From NCBI GenBank assembly GCA_018820315.1, contig JAHJOQ010000064.1:1-34512 (forward strand): DNA of 34,512 nucleotides. The letters are read 5' to 3'. Positions within the stretch are counted from its first letter, which is position 1. Every line of letters starts with the position of its first letter. The notes under the pieces were generated by a model. That model did not search any database and was not told the origin of the DNA. It worked only from the letters and a program-made list of their open reading frames with translations. This document shows, in pieces, positions 19,246 to 31,538 of the stretch. This DNA comes from Candidatus Zixiibacteriota bacterium (GTDB taxonomy: Bacteria > Zixibacteria > MSB-5A5 > JAABVY01 > JAHJOQ01). A program made the translations under genes and the position numbers.

Positions 19246-21045
19246 TTACCCACAAGCGACTTCTTCTTCAAGCCTATATCGCTTGTACATTCTTGCGTAT
19301 CTTTCGCCGCGATCCATGAGTTCGTCGTGGGTGCCTGTTTCCGCCACTTTGCCTTCATCGAAAACGTATATCCGATCAGCCCTTTCAAGGGTGTCGGGTC
19401 TATGCGTTATCACGATTGCAGTCATGTCGGGCATGACATCGTGCAATTTCTCCCACAGCGATGTCTCTGTCGCAGAATCGAGCGCAGACGTGCAATCGTC
19501 CAGAATCAGTATCCTCGGTTTGCTTACCAGGGCTCTCGCGAGAGCAAGCCTCTGCTTCTGACCGCCTGACAGTGTCATTCCACGCGTGCCGACATTTGTG
19601 TCGATGCGATCCGGAAATGTCTCAATTTCCTGTTTCAGCTGCGAGACATCAACCGCCCAATCGATTACTTCGTCCGAAATACCCTTCCGTCCAAGCACAA
19701 TATTGTTCTTCACGGTGTCGCTGAACAGTACCGGCTCCTGCGGAACATAACCGATGCTCTCGCGAAGCCCTTTCAACTTGATTGTCCGCAAGTCGTGACC
19801 ATCGAGCCGAACCTTCCCGGATGTCGGATCCACCAGTCGCGGGATCATGTTCACGAACCAGCTCTTGCCTGAGCCGACCTTGCCGACCAGCGCGATCGTT
19901 TCACTCGGCTCGATATCGAGCGAGATGTCGTCGATCACATTTCGCTCGGAGCCGGGGAACGATAGTATGACATTTTCGAAGCTCAGTCTTCCCTTTATGT
20001 CTCCATTGCCGCTCTCCAAGCCGACGTCTGTCACCATCGGCGGAACATTCTCGAGCTCCATCAAACGATCGATAGAGACCGCCGATTGACGAGACTTCAC
20101 CAGGAACTGGCCGATGTCGAACATCGGAAACACCAGGTACACGATATAGTAAATAAACGCCATCAGCTTTCCGAGGGACAGACCGGAGTTTATCACCATA
20201 TAGCCACCGGCGACGAGGACAATGAGAATCGCAAACTGCCATATGTACATGTACAGCGATTCGATCACCGTATGCGACTTGATCGCAGCAATCTCGGCAT
20301 CCCGTCGGTCCTCCACGGCATTATCGAACTTCGTCCTCTGTGCCTTCTCCTTGACATAGGCTTTGACCACCCGTATTCCGGAGAAACAGGCCTCCATCAC
20401 ATCGTTGAATCGCGATATTCGCGTTTGAAGGTGATCAAACCTCTTGTCCAGCAGGCTGGAGCTCTTGAAGAAGATCACAATCAGAAACGGCAAAGGTGTT
20501 ATCGACCACAGCGCAAGCATAGGATCAATCGACGCCATCATTACAATCGTGAAAATGACAATCATGACCGCCTCGTAGAGCCTGAATATGCCGGAGCAGG
20601 CAAACCAGGAGAGCTTCTCTGCTACATCGTCGGTCATTCTCGTCACAAGATCTCCGGTCCTGAATTTGTTGAAAAAGTCGGGACCTCGGAGTGTGATGCC
20701 GTCGAATGCTTTCTGCCGAAACAGCCATTCCAGTTTCAGGTTCATCCATGCGCGGTGACTCTGCACGAACGCATACAGACTGTTCGCACACAACCCGACC
20801 AAAACGAGTGAGATTGCATAGATGGCTACGGTCGACAGTCCGATCGTCGCTCCGAATTCACTTAGCATCACAGCCACTCTGTTTGACGGCACATCCCCTG
20901 TCTTAACATAGTCGACCGTGAATTCGATCAACCTCGGAATCAAAACATGAAGCGCAGTCTGAACCGGGGTCAGAAGAATAAGCACCGCAAGTACGTAACC
21001 GTACTCCTTGTAGTACCTCCAGAACCACTTTATTTTATCCAGCAT
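19246..21045 (-). CDS. ABC exporter half-transporter with degenerate catalytic site (heterodimer subunit A)
   Basis: A 599-aa type IV ABC exporter half: six predicted transmembrane helices in about residues 1-320, then a nucleotide-binding domain. Walker A is GKVGSGKS (388-395), the Q-loop is YVPQEPV, the signature is canonical LSGGQ (492-496) and the H-loop is VITHRPD. Walker B reads ILILDD (512-517), so Asp517 replaces the catalytic Glu. This is the hallmark of the degenerate-site subunit in heterodimeric exporters such as TM287/288, LmrCD and BmrCD. Its partner, encoded just upstream, has the complementary defect. The start at 21045 overlaps that gene by 11 bp, so the two are translationally coupled. 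The substrate is not predictable; drugs, lipids or peptides are all possible. Confidence 0.9.
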   Translation of the reverse strand: MLDKIKWFWRYYKEYGYVLAVLILLTPVQTALHVLIPRLIEFTVDYVKTGDVPSNRVAVMLSEFGATIGLSTVAIYAISLVLVGLCANSLYAFVQSHRAWMNLKLEWLFRQKAFDGITLRGPDFFNKFRTGDLVTRMTDDVAEKLSWFACSGIFRLYEAVMIVIFTIVMMASIDPMLALWSITPLPFLIVIFFKSSSLLDKRFDHLQTRISRFNDVMEACFSGIRVVKAYVKEKAQRTKFDNAVEDRRDAEIAAIKSHTVIESLYMYIWQFAILIVLVAGGYMVINSGLSLGKLMAFIYYIVYLVFPMFDIGQFLVKSRQSAVSIDRLMELENVPPMVTDVGLESGNGDIKGRLSFENVILSFPGSERNVIDDISLDIEPSETIALVGKVGSGKSWFVNMIPRLVDPTSGKVRLDGHDLRTIKLKGLRESIGYVPQEPVLFSDTVKNNIVLGRKGISDEVIDWAVDVSQLKQEIETFPDRIDTNVGTRGMTLSGGQKQRLALARALVSKPRILILDDCTSALDSATETSLWEKLHDVMPDMTAIVITHRPDTLERADRIYVFDEGKVAETGTHDELMDRGERYARMYKRYRLEEEVACG

Positions 21046-22843
21046 TGGAGATTACTCCATTCTTACTCTTGAATTGCAGGTGGAACAGCTTGGAGTAGTA
21101 TCCATCTTGGAGGATCAACTCCGTATGCGTTCCCCGCTCAATTATCTCACCTCGGCGGATCACCAGAATCTCATCGACATCGAGGATCGTCGAAAGACGA
21201 TGCGCGATGATCAGCGATGTCCGCCCTTCCATCAGCTTCTTCAAAGAAGCCTGAATCGTGCGTTCCGTTTCTGGGTCGACCGAACTCGTCGCCTCGTCAA
21301 GAAGCAGCACGTCCGGGTCTGTCACCAGCGCCCTCGCGAACGATAGTAGCTGCCTCTCACCTCGGCTGAAATTCGCGCCCTTCTCGGAAACTTCGGTTGC
21401 GTACCCATTCGGCAGCGCAGAGATGAAACGATCCGCCTCGACCGTCCGGGCAGCTTCGATCAACTTCTCCTCGGGTATCGCATCCGACTCCAGCGAGATG
21501 TTCGATTTGACATCTCCCGGGAAGAGCAGAATATCTTGCAGCACAAGCGCAAACCGGCTGCGTAGATCTGCCTTCGATATGTCTCGAATATCCGTTCCGT
21601 CGATCATAATACGGCCCTTCTGCGGGTCATATAGACGGAGCAGCAGCGAAATCACAGTCGATTTGCCACCACCTGTCACACCAACAAGTGCAACACGACT
21701 TCCAACAGGTATGTCGAAAGAGACATTCTTCATCGCAAAACTGCCATCTTCAGTATAAGAGAAGCTGACATCCTCGAAGCGAATGCCTCTCTCGATCCGA
21801 GTCAACGGAATCGGCTTCTCAGGATCGGGAATCCTCTGCTCCACCGACAGCAGAGAGAAAATTCTCTTTGCTCCGGCTACCGCCTTCTGAATGTTCGCAA
21901 GCTGCTCTGAAGTTCTCCAGATTGGCTCGAAAGACCGCCAGATTAGAACGATGAACATTCCGATCGTCCCGACTGTGAGCACACCTTGCTGGATCCAGTA
22001 CGCTCCGAAGAAGAGTGTAAGCGCCACCATGACATACTCGAAGAAGAAGACCGTGTTGAAAAACAAGCAAACAGCTATGTTCACATATTTGTCTTCATCG
22101 AACTTCAGCTTGTTGGCGCGAAATACTCGGTCGCGCGCATACTTGCCCTGGTGAAACACCTGTATGATCGACATTCCCTGCAGGAACTCCGTCAACTGCG
22201 CAGTGACTTCCGCCATTTTCTTCCTGACCTCGAGGAATCGACTCGTTGTCTTGCGCTCGAAGATCAGGATCAGGACTGCGATAATCGGCATTATCATGAA
22301 CAGGATCAACGCGAGTCTCCAGCTATAATAGAACATCACTCCGAAGATTCCCGTGACCAGAATCAAATCACCGACTATCAGCACCACCGTGTTGGTGAAC
22401 AGCATTCGAAGCGACTCTGTGTCCGACTCGACTCTCGCAAGGAGCCGTCCAACCGGATTCCTGTCAAAGAACGACACATCGAGCGACAGGATGTGGTTGA
22501 ACAGCTTTCGCTTTAAATCAACCATCACATCCTGTCCGATTATTTCCAGCCTGACACGCTGCACATATTGCAGTACCAGCGTTACTATCTGGATAACGCC
22601 AATTGCGGCGACAGTAATCAGAAGCCCATGGAAGTCGTTGTTCTTGATGTCAAGGTCGAGCGCTCTCTTAAGAAGCACTGGCCAGATAAGAGAAAGCGCT
22701 GTCGCCGAGAAGAGAAGGAACAGACAGAAAATGAGTCCGCGCTTATGTATGCTGAGCAGCGGCAGCAGTTTTCCGAATGCCTTCTTCGAGCTGATATCTT
22801 CTTCCGGCCTGATTTTTTCGTTTTCGTAGAATTGGCTGACCAT
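21035..22843 (-). CDS. ABC exporter half-transporter (heterodimer subunit B)
   Basis: A 602-aa ABC exporter half. Membrane domain about 30-320, including the coupling-region motif FFDRNPVGRLLARVESDTESL. The nucleotide-binding domain has Walker A GVTGGGKS (388-395), Q-loop LVLQDILLFPG, Walker B LLLDEATS with the catalytic Glu517 present, and H-loop IIAHRLS. The signature reads FSRGE (492-496) instead of LSGGQ. Paired with the downstream subunit, one composite ATP site is fully consensus (this Walker A/B plus partner LSGGQ) and the other is degenerate (partner Asp517 plus this FSRGE). The ATG at 22841-22843 follows AGGG by about 8 nt. It lies behind a leader with a small ORF and terminator (22900-23156), which suggests controlled read-through. 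Confidence 0.92.
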   Translation of the reverse strand: MVSQFYENEKIRPEEDISSKKAFGKLLPLLSIHKRGLIFCLFLLFSATALSLIWPVLLKRALDLDIKNNDFHGLLITVAAIGVIQIVTLVLQYVQRVRLEIIGQDVMVDLKRKLFNHILSLDVSFFDRNPVGRLLARVESDTESLRMLFTNTVVLIVGDLILVTGIFGVMFYYSWRLALILFMIMPIIAVLILIFERKTTSRFLEVRKKMAEVTAQLTEFLQGMSIIQVFHQGKYARDRVFRANKLKFDEDKYVNIAVCLFFNTVFFFEYVMVALTLFFGAYWIQQGVLTVGTIGMFIVLIWRSFEPIWRTSEQLANIQKAVAGAKRIFSLLSVEQRIPDPEKPIPLTRIERGIRFEDVSFSYTEDGSFAMKNVSFDIPVGSRVALVGVTGGGKSTVISLLLRLYDPQKGRIMIDGTDIRDISKADLRSRFALVLQDILLFPGDVKSNISLESDAIPEEKLIEAARTVEADRFISALPNGYATEVSEKGANFSRGERQLLSFARALVTDPDVLLLDEATSSVDPETERTIQASLKKLMEGRTSLIIAHRLSTILDVDEILVIRRGEIIERGTHTELILQDGYYSKLFHLQFKSKNGVISNAG

Positions 22844-22899: not shown

Positions 22900-22935
22900 C
22901 AAAAAACCCGCCGAACCTCTCTGGTCACGGCGGGT
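22900..22935 (-). terminator. Intrinsic terminator inside the leader of the ABC exporter operon
   Basis: On the minus strand ACCCGCCG (22935-22928) pairs perfectly with CGGCGGGT (22913-22906), followed by a run of six T (22906-22901). An inner ACC/GGT pair extends the stem around an AGAGA loop. It lies 57 nt upstream of the exporter start, in the sense orientation, so it would switch the exporter genes off unless bypassed. Confidence 0.85.
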
Positions 22936-22985
22936 CAAGAATCTATGTGTATTTGTTCAGATCAAGACACACTTCTCCCGCCGTG
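22926..22985 (-). promoter_or_regulatory. Candidate antiterminator hairpin competing with the leader terminator
   Basis: On the minus strand CACGGCGGG (22985-22977) is a perfect 9-bp complement of CCCGCCGTG (22934-22926). The latter contains most of the terminator's 5' arm, so the two hairpins exclude each other. The upstream strand lies within codons 24-26 of the small leader ORF, about 13 nt before its stop. Confidence 0.6.
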
Positions 22986-23054
22986 GAATTCGTTAACCTG
23001 GCTCACGCCAAGGCTGACAAAGACTTGACAATAATCGGATGTAATATTGATCAT
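22962..23054 (-). CDS. Putative 30-aa leader peptide of the ABC exporter operon
   Basis: A 31-codon frame from ATG 23054 to TGA 22962, preceded by GAGGAG (23065-23060) with 5-nt spacing, one of the better ribosome sites in the window. The peptide begins MINITSDYCQ and ends NEFHGGRSVS. It is not a membrane or signal peptide and resembles no known family. Its position, between a plausible promoter (23129-23156) and a terminator, and the complementarity of its codons 24-26 to the terminator arm suggest that its translation senses ribosome progress. Established parallel: bmrB ahead of bmrCD in Bacillus subtilis, where a leader peptide controls a heterodimeric drug exporter. A small hairpin (23013-22997, CCTTGGC/GCCAGG with one bulge) lies in its middle. 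It could also be a chance ORF. Confidence 0.5.
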   Translation of the reverse strand: MINITSDYCQVFVSLGVSQVNEFHGGRSVS

Positions 23055-23128
23055 CAAATCTCCTCGGTGGTTAAAGTACTACTGCTTCATTATCGAGTCT
23101 TACGCATCTACATCTTTCAGGTTTCACA

Positions 23129-23156
23129 AACTTAGCAAAAATATCGGCATTGTCAA
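23129..23156 (-). promoter_or_regulatory. Candidate promoter for the ABC exporter leader
   Basis: On the minus strand a consensus TTGACA (23156-23151), a 16-bp spacer and a weak TAAGTT (23134-23129), between the S41 peptidase stop and the leader ORF. The -10 is poor, so confidence is moderate. Confidence 0.42.
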
Positions 23157-23206: not shown

Positions 23207-24583
23207 TCAACTACCGGACTTAGGTGAAATGTCCACATGGCCATTGTCGTAGAGACCGTTCAACTCGGTCGGATTGCCGCTATCATCCCTGATAACTTTG
23301 ATCCTGAAATAGTCAATCTCCTTGAACATGAACAGATCGTTTGCCATCGGAATCATCTTGTACTTCGGTCTGTCCTGGCGCTGGTAATACAAGTCTCCGT
23401 TCTCGAATATCAGCGTCCTGGGGCCGTATGTGCCGACATAGGATTTGAGAATTGACTCATCGACAGTCACCGGATTCAACTCGGCTTCAAGAGTTGCAAT
23501 ATTCCATTCCAGGTCATTCCTGCGATCTTCGTCTGTCGTCTTCTCCAGCAGTTTAGTCATCGCTTCGCGCCGTGCAACGGACAGAGCTTGATCACTCGGG
23601 ACTTCAATATCAGGTGTAATTCCGGTCCCCTCCCAGTTGGTGCCGGTGATCGGGTTGATCGCCCTGCCCATAGGCACTCTCATAGCTACGTTAAGATTCG
23701 GGAAGATTGCCTCATCGACCGGATGCGCGCCGCCGCCGGTTGTTTCGCCGATGATTGTCGCACGCTCCATGCTCTTCATATTATAGGTGAACTCTTCTGC
23801 ACCCGAGAAAGTGTACGAGCTTGTCAGCACGTAAAGATCAGTGTTCGCCATCCGTCTGCCCGGCACGTAGGCCTGGGTCCAGAACTGGTGGATCGTGTCT
23901 TCATACCGAAGATAGAAGCTGTTCAAGTGTTCTGGTTCTTCAAAAAAATAGCTCGATATTAATTGAATCATCGACGGACTTCCGCCACCATTGTTGCGCA
24001 GATCGAATATGATGGCATCTGAGTATGCGAGGAAGTTCATTGCCGCGATAGCCGTTGCACCGGCGTATTGAGCGTCTGCAAATCTTCTGAAATCGATATA
24101 GCCTATATTGCCGGGGAGACGCTCCACCTTGTAGAAGCCGAAATTATCGTACTGGGCTTCCTTGAGTTCCTGCTCACGCCGTTCATCGGTAACCGTGTCT
24201 GCCTCCAAGCCTTCGAAATACTCATCTGGCATGAAGGCGATTCCGAGATGACGGTCATGGCACACCTCTCGAAGATCATCTGTCAATGCTCGCGCCAACG
24301 CCGCCACCGTATTGAGCGTGTCGTACTTGCCATCCTTGAGCCGTTTGCGGACATACTTCTTCATTTCTTTCGCGACATCGGGGAAAACGTAGTGCGAGTC
24401 GAGCACAAGAGTTACGGAGTCGATAATCTCTGCTCTGAGTTTGGCGTCAGCCGCTCGACTTTCCTCGTGACCGGGTCCTCCCTGGGCAAAGGCAGCTTGC
24501 GAGAACAGCATACCGGCGGTCAATGCAACCACCACCAGTTGAATGCTAAGTCTGATTGAAATCGCCTTCAGATTCTCTGACAT
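23207..24583 (-). CDS. Secreted S41-family serine peptidase (tail-specific protease/IRBP-like)
   Basis: A 458-aa exported protein: signal peptide with cleavage near AFA-QGG (about residue 33). An N-terminal helical domain contains VTLVLDSHYVFPDVAKEM, typical of the tricorn/IRBP branch, and DRHLGIAF with the likely catalytic His112. The peptidase core includes GYIDFRRF, the IIFDLRNNGGGSPSMIQ strand-turn (about 191-206) and the nucleophile in LTSSYTFSGAEEF (Ser260), followed by IIGETTGGGAHPVD. A C-terminal beta-domain of about 90 residues (YVGTYGPRTLIFENGDLYY ...) follows. No PDZ domain is obvious. The substrate is unknown. GAGGAGGAG immediately before the ATG at 24583 fixes the start, and a LacI-type operator lies 80-95 bp upstream. 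Confidence 0.88.
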   Translation of the reverse strand: MSENLKAISIRLSIQLVVVALTAGMLFSQAAFAQGGPGHEESRAADAKLRAEIIDSVTLVLDSHYVFPDVAKEMKKYVRKRLKDGKYDTLNTVAALARALTDDLREVCHDRHLGIAFMPDEYFEGLEADTVTDERREQELKEAQYDNFGFYKVERLPGNIGYIDFRRFADAQYAGATAIAAMNFLAYSDAIIFDLRNNGGGSPSMIQLISSYFFEEPEHLNSFYLRYEDTIHQFWTQAYVPGRRMANTDLYVLTSSYTFSGAEEFTYNMKSMERATIIGETTGGGAHPVDEAIFPNLNVAMRVPMGRAINPITGTNWEGTGITPDIEVPSDQALSVARREAMTKLLEKTTDEDRRNDLEWNIATLEAELNPVTVDESILKSYVGTYGPRTLIFENGDLYYQRQDRPKYKMIPMANDLFMFKEIDYFRIKVIRDDSGNPTELNGLYDNGHVDISPKSGS

Positions 24584-27316: not shown

Positions 27317-27497
27317 TGATATACTGTCTGATGCGGTTGAATTCTCATGGTCGAACAGAAGCGACAAGGCTCCATGTTGTCGCAACTTTCATCGTTCAAA
27401 TTGGTATTAGGATGTGTAGCGAAGTACTTGATTTCAGGATGATTTTGGCACTCCATTCCAAGTCATGGGCGGAGTGATACGCGGAGGACATAACCGA

Positions 27498-28733
27498 ATG
27501 AAGAAATCAATATATGCAGCGATAATAGTCGTGGCAGTTCTTGGCGGCTACTACGGCGTCAATGCCTTTTTCACCATCTCAACCGAAATTCCGACTGCTC
27601 TGGTTGCGAAGGGTGAGTTTGTGATATCTCAGAAAGCGAACGGCAGCGTTGACGCCAAACGGGCATATACGATGTCGGCGCCGCGAATTCGGGGGCTCCA
27701 GATCACATGGCTTGCGCCGGAAGGTGCGATGGTCAAAGAAGGTGATCCGGTGATTAAGTTCGATGCTACCCAACAGCAGGCGGATCTCACGGACAACGAA
27801 TCAACTCTCAAGATTGCAAGGACGACTCTCGAACGTGCTCAAGGCGAATACTCGATTCAGGAGAAGCAGCTCAAACTCGATCTTAAGAAGGCCCAGCGCA
27901 ATTATGACGAGATGAAACACGAAGCTATCAAACTTGCTGAGGAGGCAAAGCTGGAGCTCGAGCTGGCCGAACTGAATTTTGAAGCGAAGCTCGAACAAAT
28001 CAAGGCCGATGTCGAGAAAGCAACACTCGAGGTTCAACGGGCGCAGGATAAGGTCAATCTTGCACGGCGTGAGTTGGATCAGCTCACAATGAATGCTCCG
28101 ATTCCGGGCATGGTCGTCTATCTCGAAATCTGGAAGGGTGGCTCCATGAGCAAGGTGCAGGAGGGGGATGGGCCGTGGCCGGGTCAGGGTCTAATCCAAC
28201 TTCCCGACCTGTCAGAGATGGTCGTTAAAGCTGCCGTTTCTGAAGTCAATGCTTCTGAGATTGATTCCGGACAGGCTGCCATCATCACGCTCGATGCCTT
28301 TCCTAATGTGCAGCATCAGGGTGTTGTCACAAAGAAGAGCACACTTGCGCGACGCAAAGAGCCGGGATCCAAGATAAACGTCTTTGATGTCGAAATAGCG
28401 ATCCTTGAAAATGACAAGCAGATCAAACCGGGCATGTCTGCCTCCAGCAAAATCATAATGGATCGTATTGCCGATGTGGTCTCTGTCCCGCTTGAGGCAG
28501 TCTTCGAGAAGGAGGGCGAGATTGTCGTCTATCTCGGCAACAAGGATAAGCGTTCTGTCGAGGTCGGTCGCCGCAATGACATGAACATCGAGATACTCTC
28601 CGGCCTCGATGGGGGCGAGCGGGTCTGCCTGAGCGATCCTACGGTTGAAGAGTTGGATCTGCCGGGCGATGTCGCTACCGAGCCTGAGTTGAACAAGGGG
28701 CGTCAAGCGGGCAGGTCGATCAATGGATCATAG
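27498..28733 (+). CDS. MacA/HlyD-like periplasmic adaptor (membrane-fusion protein)
   Basis: A 411-aa adaptor. ATG 27498 is chosen because GGAGGA (27483-27488) lies 9 nt upstream and it gives the MKKSIYAAIIVVAVLGG anchor; the frame also opens at 27465. After the single N-terminal membrane helix come a split lipoyl-like hairpin (GAMVKEGDPVIKFD, 77-89, and LTMNAPIPGMVVY, 196-208) around a long charged coiled coil (about 97-196), then beta-barrel and membrane-proximal domains with PGMSASSKI and VPLEAVFEKEGEIVVYLGN. It would bridge the inner-membrane permease and the TolC-like channel encoded downstream. It overlaps the permease gene by 11 bp, so the products are likely made in fixed ratio. Confidence 0.88.
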   Translation: MKKSIYAAIIVVAVLGGYYGVNAFFTISTEIPTALVAKGEFVISQKANGSVDAKRAYTMSAPRIRGLQITWLAPEGAMVKEGDPVIKFDATQQQADLTDNESTLKIARTTLERAQGEYSIQEKQLKLDLKKAQRNYDEMKHEAIKLAEEAKLELELAELNFEAKLEQIKADVEKATLEVQRAQDKVNLARRELDQLTMNAPIPGMVVYLEIWKGGSMSKVQEGDGPWPGQGLIQLPDLSEMVVKAAVSEVNASEIDSGQAAIITLDAFPNVQHQGVVTKKSTLARRKEPGSKINVFDVEIAILENDKQIKPGMSASSKIIMDRIADVVSVPLEAVFEKEGEIVVYLGNKDKRSVEVGRRNDMNIEILSGLDGGERVCLSDPTVEELDLPGDVATEPELNKGRQAGRSINGS

Positions 28734-30024
28734 ATTCCTGTATCGCATGTCATTCGATTCCCTCGGCGCACATAAGCTGCGCACATTTCTCACCATGCTC
28801 GGCGTGATCATCGGTGTGGCCGCTGTTATTGCGATGCTATCGATTGGTGAGGGAGCAAAGCAGGAAGCTCTCGAACAGATTTCCATTCTCGGAGTCAACA
28901 ACGTCATAGTCAATGCCAAAATCCCGGAGGAAGATCCAACTTCGGGGATCGCTCTGCAGAGATCACCGGGCCTCACTCTCGATGACGGTAAGAATATTGC
29001 AGAGCACTCTGAGTTCGTCGCGAATGTCATTCCACAAAGGTTCGAACCGATCAGCACGATCTCATACAGGGGGAATGATGCAGCTGTGAGAGTTGTAGCG
29101 ACGATTCCTGAATTCACTCTCTCATCGTCTATTGAGGTCGAAAACGGGCGGTTTCTCAAGGACTTCGACAGCAAAGATTTCAGTCAGGTCTGCGTGCTGG
29201 GTGCGAAGGCGAAACGGAGCCTTTTTGCGTTTGACGACCCAATAGGCAGAAGCGTACGTATCGGCGATCTCGATTTCACGGTGATCGGCGTGATGGCGGA
29301 TAAGTACATCGGGCGAGGCAAAGTAGAAGGTCTCGAACTGAAGAATTTCAACGAGGATGTGTACATTCCACTCTCGACAGCCCAGAAGAAGCTCGAACGA
29401 GTTGCAGAGTTGAGAGGTGCAACGCAACAATTCCGGATGGAAGTCTCTTCCGAGATAGAGAAGGCCTATAATACGCCGGAGATTGATCAATTGACAATAA
29501 CGGTTACCGATCTGAAATACGTTCCGGTCGTCACGAAACTCGTGGAGCGCATAATGGAACGCAGACATGCCGGCGTTGAGGATTATGAAATCGTAGTACC
29601 GGAATCGCTGCTTCGTCAATCACAGAAAACACAGCAGATTTTTAACATAGTCATGGGAGCTATCGCAGGGCTGTCGCTGCTAGTCGGCGGTATCGGCATA
29701 ATGAACATCATGCTTGCGTCGGTACTCGAACGGACTCGTGAAATCGGCATCCGCCGCGCAATAGGTGCAAAACGTGGCGATATCTTGAGGCAGTTCCTCA
29801 TTGAAGCTGTCACGATTTGCTTGCTCGGCTGCTTGGTAGGACTTGCGCTTGGACTGATCATCTCAACAGCAATCACATATTATGCAGGCTGGCCGACGAT
29901 CGTCTCCATCTTCTCGATAGTCCTTGCAGTAGGTGTATCCGCCACGGTCGGGATTGTCTTTGGCTTGTTCCCGGCGAATAAGGCTTCCAAGCTCGATGTC
30001 ATAGAGTCCCTCCGATATGAATAG
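28723..30024 (+). CDS. MacB/FtsX-type ABC permease lacking an ATPase domain
   Basis: A 433-aa permease of the MacB/FtsX (type VII) class: first helix in LRTFLTMLGVIIGVAAVIAML (about 18-38) with the following SIGEGAKQEALEQI, a periplasmic MacB_PCD domain of about 230 residues, then three C-terminal helices beginning at IVMGAIAGLSLLVGGIGIMNIM and including ERTREIGIRRAIGAKRGDI (conserved cytoplasmic helix contacting the ATPase), and ending near EAVTICLLGCLVGLALGL and IVLAVGVSATVGIVFGLFPA. MacB itself has a fused N-terminal ATPase; here there is none, so a separate ATPase must be supplied. None is encoded in this operon, and the nearest one (natA) is divergent and belongs to an ABC-2 pair. It begins inside the adaptor gene. 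Confidence 0.9.
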   Translation: MDHRFLYRMSFDSLGAHKLRTFLTMLGVIIGVAAVIAMLSIGEGAKQEALEQISILGVNNVIVNAKIPEEDPTSGIALQRSPGLTLDDGKNIAEHSEFVANVIPQRFEPISTISYRGNDAAVRVVATIPEFTLSSSIEVENGRFLKDFDSKDFSQVCVLGAKAKRSLFAFDDPIGRSVRIGDLDFTVIGVMADKYIGRGKVEGLELKNFNEDVYIPLSTAQKKLERVAELRGATQQFRMEVSSEIEKAYNTPEIDQLTITVTDLKYVPVVTKLVERIMERRHAGVEDYEIVVPESLLRQSQKTQQIFNIVMGAIAGLSLLVGGIGIMNIMLASVLERTREIGIRRAIGAKRGDILRQFLIEAVTICLLGCLVGLALGLIISTAITYYAGWPTIVSIFSIVLAVGVSATVGIVFGLFPANKASKLDVIESLRYE

Positions 30025-30050
30025 AAATCCCTCGGATGTGAGGTTAATCG

Positions 30051-31538
30051 ATGAATAGATCTCTACTGAATAAGCATTATCTTTTTGGCTCTGTTATTTT
30101 GCTTTTGGCAATTGCCATTGTTGTGCCAGCTCTGTCGTATGCCGAAATGTTGACACTCGATGACGCCATAGACATCGCGGTCAACCGTACAGCCCGCGGC
30201 GGGATGATTCGCGGCAATCTCGAAGTCGCAGAGCAGAATTACTTTGCCCGGAAGATCAATTTCTATGTGCCCGAGATTTCGATCAATGGCTCGGTGCCTG
30301 CGTACAATGTCGATGAATCATACAGGTTCTTCGGCGGAGCCACGGAGAAGCAGCTCTATCGGACACGCGATCTCGGCTTCAATTCGTTTGTCGAGCTGAA
30401 TCAAAGCCTGATAACGGGCGGTGATGTCAAAGTTACCGCGAATCTGCTGACCCGCGATGATCGCTATCCGAATACCAGGCCAGGTTCCGAGCTCGGTAGT
30501 TTCATTAAAGAGCATACGAATCAGGGTTACTTCACTTTTAGATACGAGCAGCCGATTCTAAAGCCTTCAGACTCCAAGAACAATCTTTACAACACCAGGG
30601 ATGATCTCGAAATCGCGAAGATGGTGAGGCTCGAAGAAGAGACGGCGCTGAGGAAAGAAATCACTGAGGCATATATTACTGTGCTGCAATTGTCGATCAA
30701 ATCCGAAATCACAAACGACAAGTTCGAAGCCGCTGGATTGACAGCCGAAATCGATTCGATGAAATTGATTGACGGTGTGATCTCCGAAGAGGACTGGCTG
30801 CTGTCGTCATCTAATCGACTCGATGCGGAATTGGAAAGCTTCGAAATCGAAAACCAGGTCGAGGAGCAGAGGCGTGAGCTGGCAATTCTTCTCGACAGGG
30901 ATCCGACTGCCGAATTGGAGCTGACACAACCGACTGTTTCTGAGAAAATAGATAAGTATGTTCGCCAGAGGATGCTCGACTCGTGGGAGATCAGCGTACC
31001 AGTAATCAAGGCAGACATGGAGTATTCGAAAGCTGAGCGGCAGGCGAATTATGCAGCATCGGGACACGGTATCAATGGCGATCTCACTGCTGAGTATTCG
31101 ACCGGACAGGGGAGAGTCGAAACCGACGGCATCAGCGACAATATCAATACCAAGGGCTGGGGAGTTGCGCTGAACTTCTCGTTCCCGATATGGGATGGTG
31201 GCGCGTCGGGTGCGGCAGTGAAGTCTGCATGGCTCGGTGCTGAGCAGTCCAAGCTCGAAAGTGACCGTGCTAGAAAACGAACCAAGGCTGAGATAATCAA
31301 TCTTGTCAATCAACTCGATGTCGGTTATAGAAGGCTCGAAATAGTCAGACAGCAGATCGATCTGGCTGAGAACAAACTCAACATCGCCGAATCACGATTC
31401 AATGACGGGCAGATTTCGAAAGTGACATATCTCGAAAGCAAAGTCTTCTATCTCGAAACCAGAGACAGATATCTTGAAGAGTTGAAGAGCTACGTTCTGA
31501 ACAAGATCGAACTTGAAGGCAAGTTCATCGACGGGTAG
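30051..31538 (+). CDS. TolC-like outer-membrane efflux protein
   Basis: A 495-aa outer-membrane factor with a signal peptide cleaved near LSYA-EML. Mature start MLTLDDAIDIAVNRTARG is the classic OEP opening. Two long helical-coiled regions (about 190-300 and 405-495, with ETDRYLEEL-like heptads in LESKVFYLETRDRYLEELKSY) flank predicted barrel segments (QGYFTFRYEQPILKPSDS; GWGVALNFSFPIWDGGASGAA). The second repeat ends with the expected closing helix. Trimers of such proteins form the exit duct for MacA-type pumps. The gene starts 26 nt after the permease stop with GAGG 8 nt before the ATG, completing a three-gene MacA-MacB-TolC-like operon, and is followed by a hairpin at 31552-31570. Confidence 0.9.
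   Translation: MNRSLLNKHYLFGSVILLLAIAIVVPALSYAEMLTLDDAIDIAVNRTARGGMIRGNLEVAEQNYFARKINFYVPEISINGSVPAYNVDESYRFFGGATEKQLYRTRDLGFNSFVELNQSLITGGDVKVTANLLTRDDRYPNTRPGSELGSFIKEHTNQGYFTFRYEQPILKPSDSKNNLYNTRDDLEIAKMVRLEEETALRKEITEAYITVLQLSIKSEITNDKFEAAGLTAEIDSMKLIDGVISEEDWLLSSSNRLDAELESFEIENQVEEQRRELAILLDRDPTAELELTQPTVSEKIDKYVRQRMLDSWEISVPVIKADMEYSKAERQANYAASGHGINGDLTAEYSTGQGRVETDGISDNINTKGWGVALNFSFPIWDGGASGAAVKSAWLGAEQSKLESDRARKRTKAEIINLVNQLDVGYRRLEIVRQQIDLAENKLNIAESRFNDGQISKVTYLESKVFYLETRDRYLEELKSYVLNKIELEGKFIDG

Follow-up and report, generated by a model that had tools for sequence, protein, structure and literature searches.

The window, as we call the entire stretch of 34,512 nucleotides analyzed here, is part of a 3.78-Mb genome from the candidate phylum Zixibacteria, with Candidatus Zixiibacteriota as the nearest relatives judging by the exporter; this is in line with the first-pass annotation of this DNA, which had placed it in a candidate phylum. 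All elements of the leader reside on the minus strand, between a gene for an S41 peptidase and two overlapping genes for ABC half-transporters (Table 1). From the DNA letters alone, the first-pass annotation had called a 30-codon ORF with a Shine-Dalgarno (SD) GAGGAG at 5 nt, an intrinsic terminator in the sense direction ~57 nt ahead of the first exporter gene, and a 9-nt complement between codons 24-26 and the 5' arm of this terminator. The ORF and its SD were found base for base at their places and the complement is exact; the terminator is also present, with a hairpin of -22.6 kcal/mol (z of -3.4 by folding) and a T6 tail, about 57 nt from the exporter ATG at 22843. The hairpin, which was absent from the output of a simple terminator scan, lies outside the leader ORF, beginning ~25 nt past the stop codon, and the antiterminator strand is separated from that stop by 12 nt. 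When the whole leader of the window is folded, the antiterminator is displayed. The first-pass annotation had also stated that a transcription start downstream of 22900 would refute its reading, and for such a start we found no support: TTGACA-16-TAAGTT lies upstream of the ORF, with a start predicted near 23125-23122 (GAAAC).

Table 1. Features of the leader and of its flanking genes in the window.
Feature	Position	Strand	Details
S41 peptidase gene	24583-23207	minus	upstream of leader, same strand as leader
Putative promoter	23129..23156	minus	-35 TTGACA 23156-23151, 16-nt spacer, -10 TAAGTT 23134-23129
Shine-Dalgarno GAGGAG	23060..23065	minus	5 nt ahead of leader ATG
Leader ORF, 30 codons, MINITSDYCQVFVSLGVSQVNEFHGGRSVS	22962..23054	minus	ATG 23054, TGA 22964-22962
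Antiterminator strand CACGGCGGG	22977..22985	minus	codons 24-26; exact complement of 22934-22926
Antiterminator hairpin loop	22938..22972	minus	contains stop codon and small nested stem GTGT/ACAC
Shared segment CCCGCCGTG	22926..22934	minus	antiterminator 3' side, identical with terminator 5' arm
Intrinsic terminator hairpin and T6 tail	22901..22936	minus	3' arm CGGCGGG 22913-22907, T6 22906-22901
Exporter gene 1, ABC half-transporter	21035..22843	minus	catalytic Walker B LLLDE, degenerate signature FSRGE
Exporter gene 2, ABC half-transporter	19246..21045	minus	intact signature LSGGQ, degenerate Walker B LILDD

The two exporter genes overlap by 11 nt. Heterodimeric exporters, e.g. TM287/288, TmrAB and BmrCD, typically show complementary degeneracy of their ATP sites, and the asymmetric pair encoded here, with one degenerate ATP site, bears out at the sequence level the heterodimer that had been proposed. 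Gene 1 is close to TmrA (5mkk_A), TM288 and BmrD (YheH)-type chains, and the closest bacterial heterodimers in PDB by sequence are TmrAB, BmrCD and TM287/288. Among the NCBIfam matches listed, none exceeded its curated cut-off for the exporter. Transport of drugs is plausible for such a protein; ABCB-type exporters also move lipids and peptides. The window harbors additional transport genes between 25267 and 31538, including an ABC ATPase with an ABC-2 permease (27239-25267, minus strand) and, at 27465-31538 on the plus strand, HlyD-like and MacB-like genes with an outer-membrane efflux protein.

Searching related genomes for exporter gene 1 yielded 59 distinct upstream regions; 48 leaders were aligned, and the 47 complete ones were used for ORF and folding counts. 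Nearly all relatives at about 59-83% identity to the exporter protein of the window share the leader anatomy, comprising a small ORF, a CGGCGGG-type strand near the ORF end, a loop of about 40-48 nt and then a terminator, the end of which is positioned roughly 40-77 nt from the exporter. A promoter-like sequence, with a TTGACA-like box, a spacer of 16-18 nt (mostly 16, with GAAAC then mostly coming after the promoter) and an AT-rich -10, precedes the ORF by about 90-130 nt in almost all of the 47 leaders. Upstream of the exporter, L044 and L055 have a leader variant that combines a weak or degenerate terminator with an ORF ending a few bases short of the CGGCGGG strand; L017 is masked with N. 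The more distant exporter relatives (L025-L031, about 48-57% identity) are without the element as modelled; in two of these, L025 and L029, the exporter follows a small ORF and a terminator unlike the one modelled, GAGCCGGAC...GTCCGGCTC, which together may be a further attenuator of this type.

Compensatory changes in both hairpins, which the first-pass annotation had proposed to look for in relatives, are present. Over the 48 aligned leaders, the antiterminator helix is 91% paired, 6 of its 9 pairs having changed on both sides, and the terminator helix is 98.7% paired, 5 of its 8 pairs having done so; two mutually exclusive helices sharing one strand are thus each backed by compensatory changes. 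The nested stem within the antiterminator loop is about 71% paired and reads TGTGA/TCACA in many relatives; a TGTGA-N6-TCACA palindrome in their loop could also be a DNA site. These pairings stand out from controls as evidenced by: 1) a covariation score of 0.271 for antiterminator plus nested stem vs. 0.149 in shuffles (0/500), with slid versions at ≤0.129; and 2) a score of 0.285 for the terminator vs. 0.141 in shuffles (0/500), also above all slid versions. Relatedness is not accounted for by the shuffles, and we therefore also counted changes on the exporter protein tree, on which pair 29/89 changed state 11 times. At antiterminator column 29 (ORF strand), G changed to A along at least 5 independent paths; on 4.8 of 5, the arm changed from C to T, with the opposite never seen; the sign test for this single best pair gave a p of 0.06, limited by the number of independent changes. 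With the middle strand being part of each helix, the covariation is three-way, as exemplified by CGACGGG / CCCGTCG / CGACGGG in L019, L069 and L078. RNAalifold reports the terminator alone on this alignment since the alternative helix shares its strand, and the antiterminator was therefore scored as a named structure. An exact complement of at least 7 nt to the terminator arm was found in 27 of 47 leaders vs. 2.4% of shuffles, reaching 9 nt in the window.

The small ORF, likewise expected to be conserved, is present as well: 43 of the 47 complete leaders have an ORF that is preceded by an SD and ends 9-19 nt past the antiterminator strand, vs. 1.4 ± 1.2 in dinucleotide shuffles. The SD comprises at least 4 nt in these 43, with a weak SD or none at the ORFs of the remaining 4. 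Lengths range from 22 to 30 codons in the window and its relatives, and the distance from strand to stop is always 9-19 nt, being 18 nt in 28 of 47 leaders. As for its putative translation, the ORF offers the SD, the conserved frame and the position of the stop. The encoded peptide, on the other hand, had to be rejected as the conserved element, given that codon differences between close leader pairs are mostly nonsynonymous and that the conserved RNA motif is translated as GG, DG or AAG depending on lineage, and in other frames in five leaders. Among the 47 exporter leaders, there were no runs of three like residues other than Gly, and no residue common to most leaders at any position before the strand. 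The leader peptide is free to change and, in the scheme favored below, is not itself the signal. As for composition, acidic residues (D+E) are scarce in the exporter leader ORFs before the strand (2.6% vs. 5.9% in shuffled sequence), Pro occupies the fifth codon ahead of the strand in 18 of 47 leaders, there is an enrichment for Asn, Ile and Cys, and a VP-like motif often occurs 5-6 codons before the strand. The 32 nt preceding the strand display a weak folding excess (-5.2 vs. -4.2 kcal/mol in shuffles, about 3.7 sd), which might reflect a hairpin that pauses RNA polymerase; a conserved protector hairpin or anti-antiterminator was not found across the aligned leaders.

A covariance model built from the leaders found matches in 75 of 133 Zixibacteria genomes at the search threshold of E ≤ 1e-6. 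The genome of the window itself has one strong copy (E of 1.8e-23; the next match is at 0.065). Wherever inspected, strong matches precede orthologues of the exporter, the exceptions being leaders of trpE and of a pheA-type gene, so that the recurrence of the element with the same exporter in related genomes was confirmed. One genome has two copies of leader plus exporter, L157 (G069:C1:815300-818700) and L156 (G069:C1:1546400-1549500); in one of them the exporter gene enters masked sequence and may be broken. Matches L122-L127 and L129-L133 were rejected as leaders, resembling ordinary terminators behind or between genes, as was L134, which precedes a distant relative of the exporter and is a terminator without the leader design. 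No Rfam family scored above its gathering threshold in the leader, the best being RF02837 with 16.8 bits vs. 49.5 needed.

The exceptions serve as natural controls. L128 (G050:C54:17515-17609, minus strand; MKMMQTNFSSSAHDFARYWWWYIINIDSGSCAIRIPL) is a trpE leader with a WWW peptide and a stop 25 nt after the strand; L158 (G105:C126:10246-10331, minus strand; MNFSVSHNNIPGSARNWWWWSIPDTGSG) is a trpE leader with a WWWW peptide and a stop 0 nt after the strand; and L121 (G054:C8:2237-2322, minus strand; MNRFATTADVYYYQYFGLFTQPRAGVNPPH) lies ahead of a chorismate mutase/prephenate dehydratase-like (pheA-type) gene, with the genes downstream of all three named from their sequence, without a family search. 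These leaders have the same geometry as those of the exporter, i.e. a strand in the last codons of the ORF that is complementary to the 5' arm of the terminator. In contrast to the exporter leaders, which have no control codons, they carry Trp or Tyr/Phe codons in runs of WWW, WWWW or YYYQYF located 3-11 codons before the strand. In trp-type attenuation, starvation stalls the ribosome at the control codons, resulting in antitermination. Recognizing that the same geometry is found within this phylum, the likely direction of the exporter switch is that a stall upstream gives read-through and completion of the ORF gives termination. Since control codons are absent from the exporter leaders, general ribosome stalling is probably what is sensed.

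Based on these data, we surmise that the leader is a ribosome-mediated transcription attenuator sensing general translation stalling, a reading to which we assign a probability of roughly 0.8. RNA polymerase would start about 70 nt before the short leader ORF. A ribosome reaching the stop codon would clear or block the antiterminator strand and occupy the loop of the antiterminator hairpin, with the 5' arm of the terminator then pairing with its 3' arm and transcription ending before the exporter. Were the ribosome to stall before this point in the leader, for instance owing to antibiotics that target it, the antiterminator would form first, because both its strands are made before the 3' arm of the terminator, and the heterodimeric exporter would be transcribed. 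That stalling leads to read-through, and not the reverse, is a direction we infer by analogy; the drug stimulus and the role of the exporter are likewise proposed, the exporter probably responding to general ribosome stalling such as that caused by antibiotics. If the ribosome failed to load, the antiterminator and read-through might perhaps ensue too, and we lean, loosely, towards read-through for an untranslated leader.

Folding models, which do not encompass steric effects or kinetics, delineate how far this scheme can be carried. When synthesis had proceeded no further than the 3' arm, 42 of 47 leaders formed the antiterminator, whether the ribosome was absent or stalled 8 codons ahead of the strand. 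At equilibrium in the full-length model, in which the RNA is cut at the T tail, the terminator formed in 45 of 47 leaders with a ribosome at the stop, and in 35 of 47 without any ribosome. As the terminator is favored at equilibrium even in these 35, kinetics must decide, and we rejected an explanation of the switch by equilibrium alone in preference to the order of synthesis. A second constraint pertains to the claim in the first-pass annotation that a ribosome at the stop hides the antiterminator strand. This holds where the stop is close, as in the window with its 12 nt, but not in the 28 of 47 leaders with the stop 18 nt away, in which a 30-nt footprint abuts the strand without covering it, so that closing of the loop would have to be blocked sterically. 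Prior to synthesis of the 3' arm, with a ribosome on the last codon and pairing around it allowed, the antiterminator still formed in 27 of 47 leaders. We speculate that a ribosome within the ~45-nt loop would sterically prevent closure of the antiterminator, and that translation through the strand would disrupt it.

Other explanations would do without a translating ribosome. The hairpin could be the terminator of the S41 peptidase gene, which lies upstream on the same strand and ends at 23207, the exporter having its own promoter after the hairpin; intrinsic terminators are indeed common behind genes in Zixibacteria genomes, as seen with weak generic model matches. We consider this very improbable. 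A promoter-like sequence sits between the peptidase and the leader ORF. We also inspected 41 loci for the closest ORF upstream: in 23 it lies on the opposite strand, and the window is the sole locus where it is an S41 homologue, yet the leader is present; with the upstream gene so variable, the terminator does not serve it. Nor would a terminator of this kind give the antiterminator strand and the ORF any reason to co-vary with it. A ligand riboswitch, a protein-controlled antiterminator or a DNA-bound roadblock at the TGTGA-N6-TCACA palindrome in the loop is just as far-fetched. The palindrome resembles a CRP-type operator, spans or adjoins the stop codon of the leader and is found strictly in 14 of 47 leaders (19 when relaxed), but most leaders lack it, the window has no palindrome of this form, and where present it behaves like a nested stem with co-varying sides. 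With neither an Rfam family above threshold nor a conserved aptamer-like core in the leaders, and with the ORF left unexplained, such a control is hard to reconcile with our data.

Among readings that do involve the ribosome, stalling might be confined to codons for a scarce amino acid or to a defined peptide. Starvation attenuation could be entertained because the same two-hairpin design precedes trpE and a pheA-type gene in Zixibacteria, and because of the Pro codon and the enrichment for Asn, Ile and Cys mentioned above. Nevertheless, the trp and phe leaders show at least 3 control codons in the stretch before the strand, whereas not one of the 47 exporter leaders has a codon run or shares a residue with most others there; moreover, the target is an exporter and not a biosynthetic gene. 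A starvation signal is therefore quite unlikely. Drug-specific arrest peptides, a defined nascent motif of which halts the ribosome in the presence of a drug such as a macrolide or phenicol, are known from the leaders of ermC and msrD, the latter being the subject of PMC10314930. Along with this precedent, the paucity of D+E and the frequent VP-like motif near the strand would fit an arrest peptide, but the peptides are very diverse, differing mostly by nonsynonymous changes even between close relatives, and the enrichment in Asn and Ile fits ordinary start-proximal codons. An arrest peptide may operate in single lineages, leaving the diversity of leaders unexplained; as a general account we deem it unlikely.

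Preferring an attenuator that senses general stalling, we put forward a broader proposition, for which the odds appear to us about even: throughout the phylum, the leader may be a codon-neutral and sequence-free sensor of translation rate, in which any short ORF serves provided that its stop falls 9-19 nt after the strand. The exporter would then answer any agent that slows the ribosome, translational stress having been its constant cue as the phylum evolved, with the same scaffold, supplied with Trp or Tyr/Phe codons, being used for amino-acid operons. Our findings indicate that an uncultured phylum uses RNA alone to tie a drug-type pump to the stalling of ribosomes, in a coupling old enough to occur in most genomes available for the phylum, and they predict inducible drug-type efflux beyond the bacteria in which such attenuators were studied. 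The aligned leaders also provide 48 natural variants of one switch with a freely varying peptide, and, with the trpE and pheA-type leaders as controls, whether general stalling or a specific codon is the signal becomes directly testable.

Attenuators in Zixibacteria were not described in any work found by our literature search, the coverage of which was incomplete. The closest precedent is bmrB-bmrCD of Bacillus subtilis, a ribosome-mediated system in which drugs targeting the 50S subunit cause read-through and blocking translation of the bmrB leader lowered expression (PMC4191407). Both that system and ours place an intrinsic terminator, an antiterminator and a leader ORF before the genes of a heterodimeric ABC exporter of the multidrug type, assigned here by sequence. 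However, bmrB spans 162 nt, encloses the terminator within its ORF and has a predicted anti-antiterminator (PMC4191407), whereas the Zixibacteria ORFs comprise 22-30 codons with the terminator downstream and no conserved anti-antiterminator; bmrB-bmrCD belongs to another phylum, and a sequence relation between the two is not expected. The patAB genes of Streptococcus pneumoniae, also encoding a heterodimeric ABC exporter, are preceded by a terminator with a predicted antiterminator and anti-antiterminator, and terminator mutations result in overexpression; unlike the case here, the text mentions no leader peptide, and the inducers named are fluoroquinolones or DNA damage (PMC4319486). In lactobacilli, a multidrug-export ABC-leader was predicted by analysis of premature terminators, with no sensing system assigned in the accessible part of that report (PMC2965389); it likewise precedes a multidrug export operon, in another phylum and as a prediction only. 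The principle is thus known from bmrB-bmrCD, while the phylum-wide occurrence in Zixibacteria is new and has unusually strong backing from sequence, with a simpler two-state layout in which the terminator lies outside the ORF.
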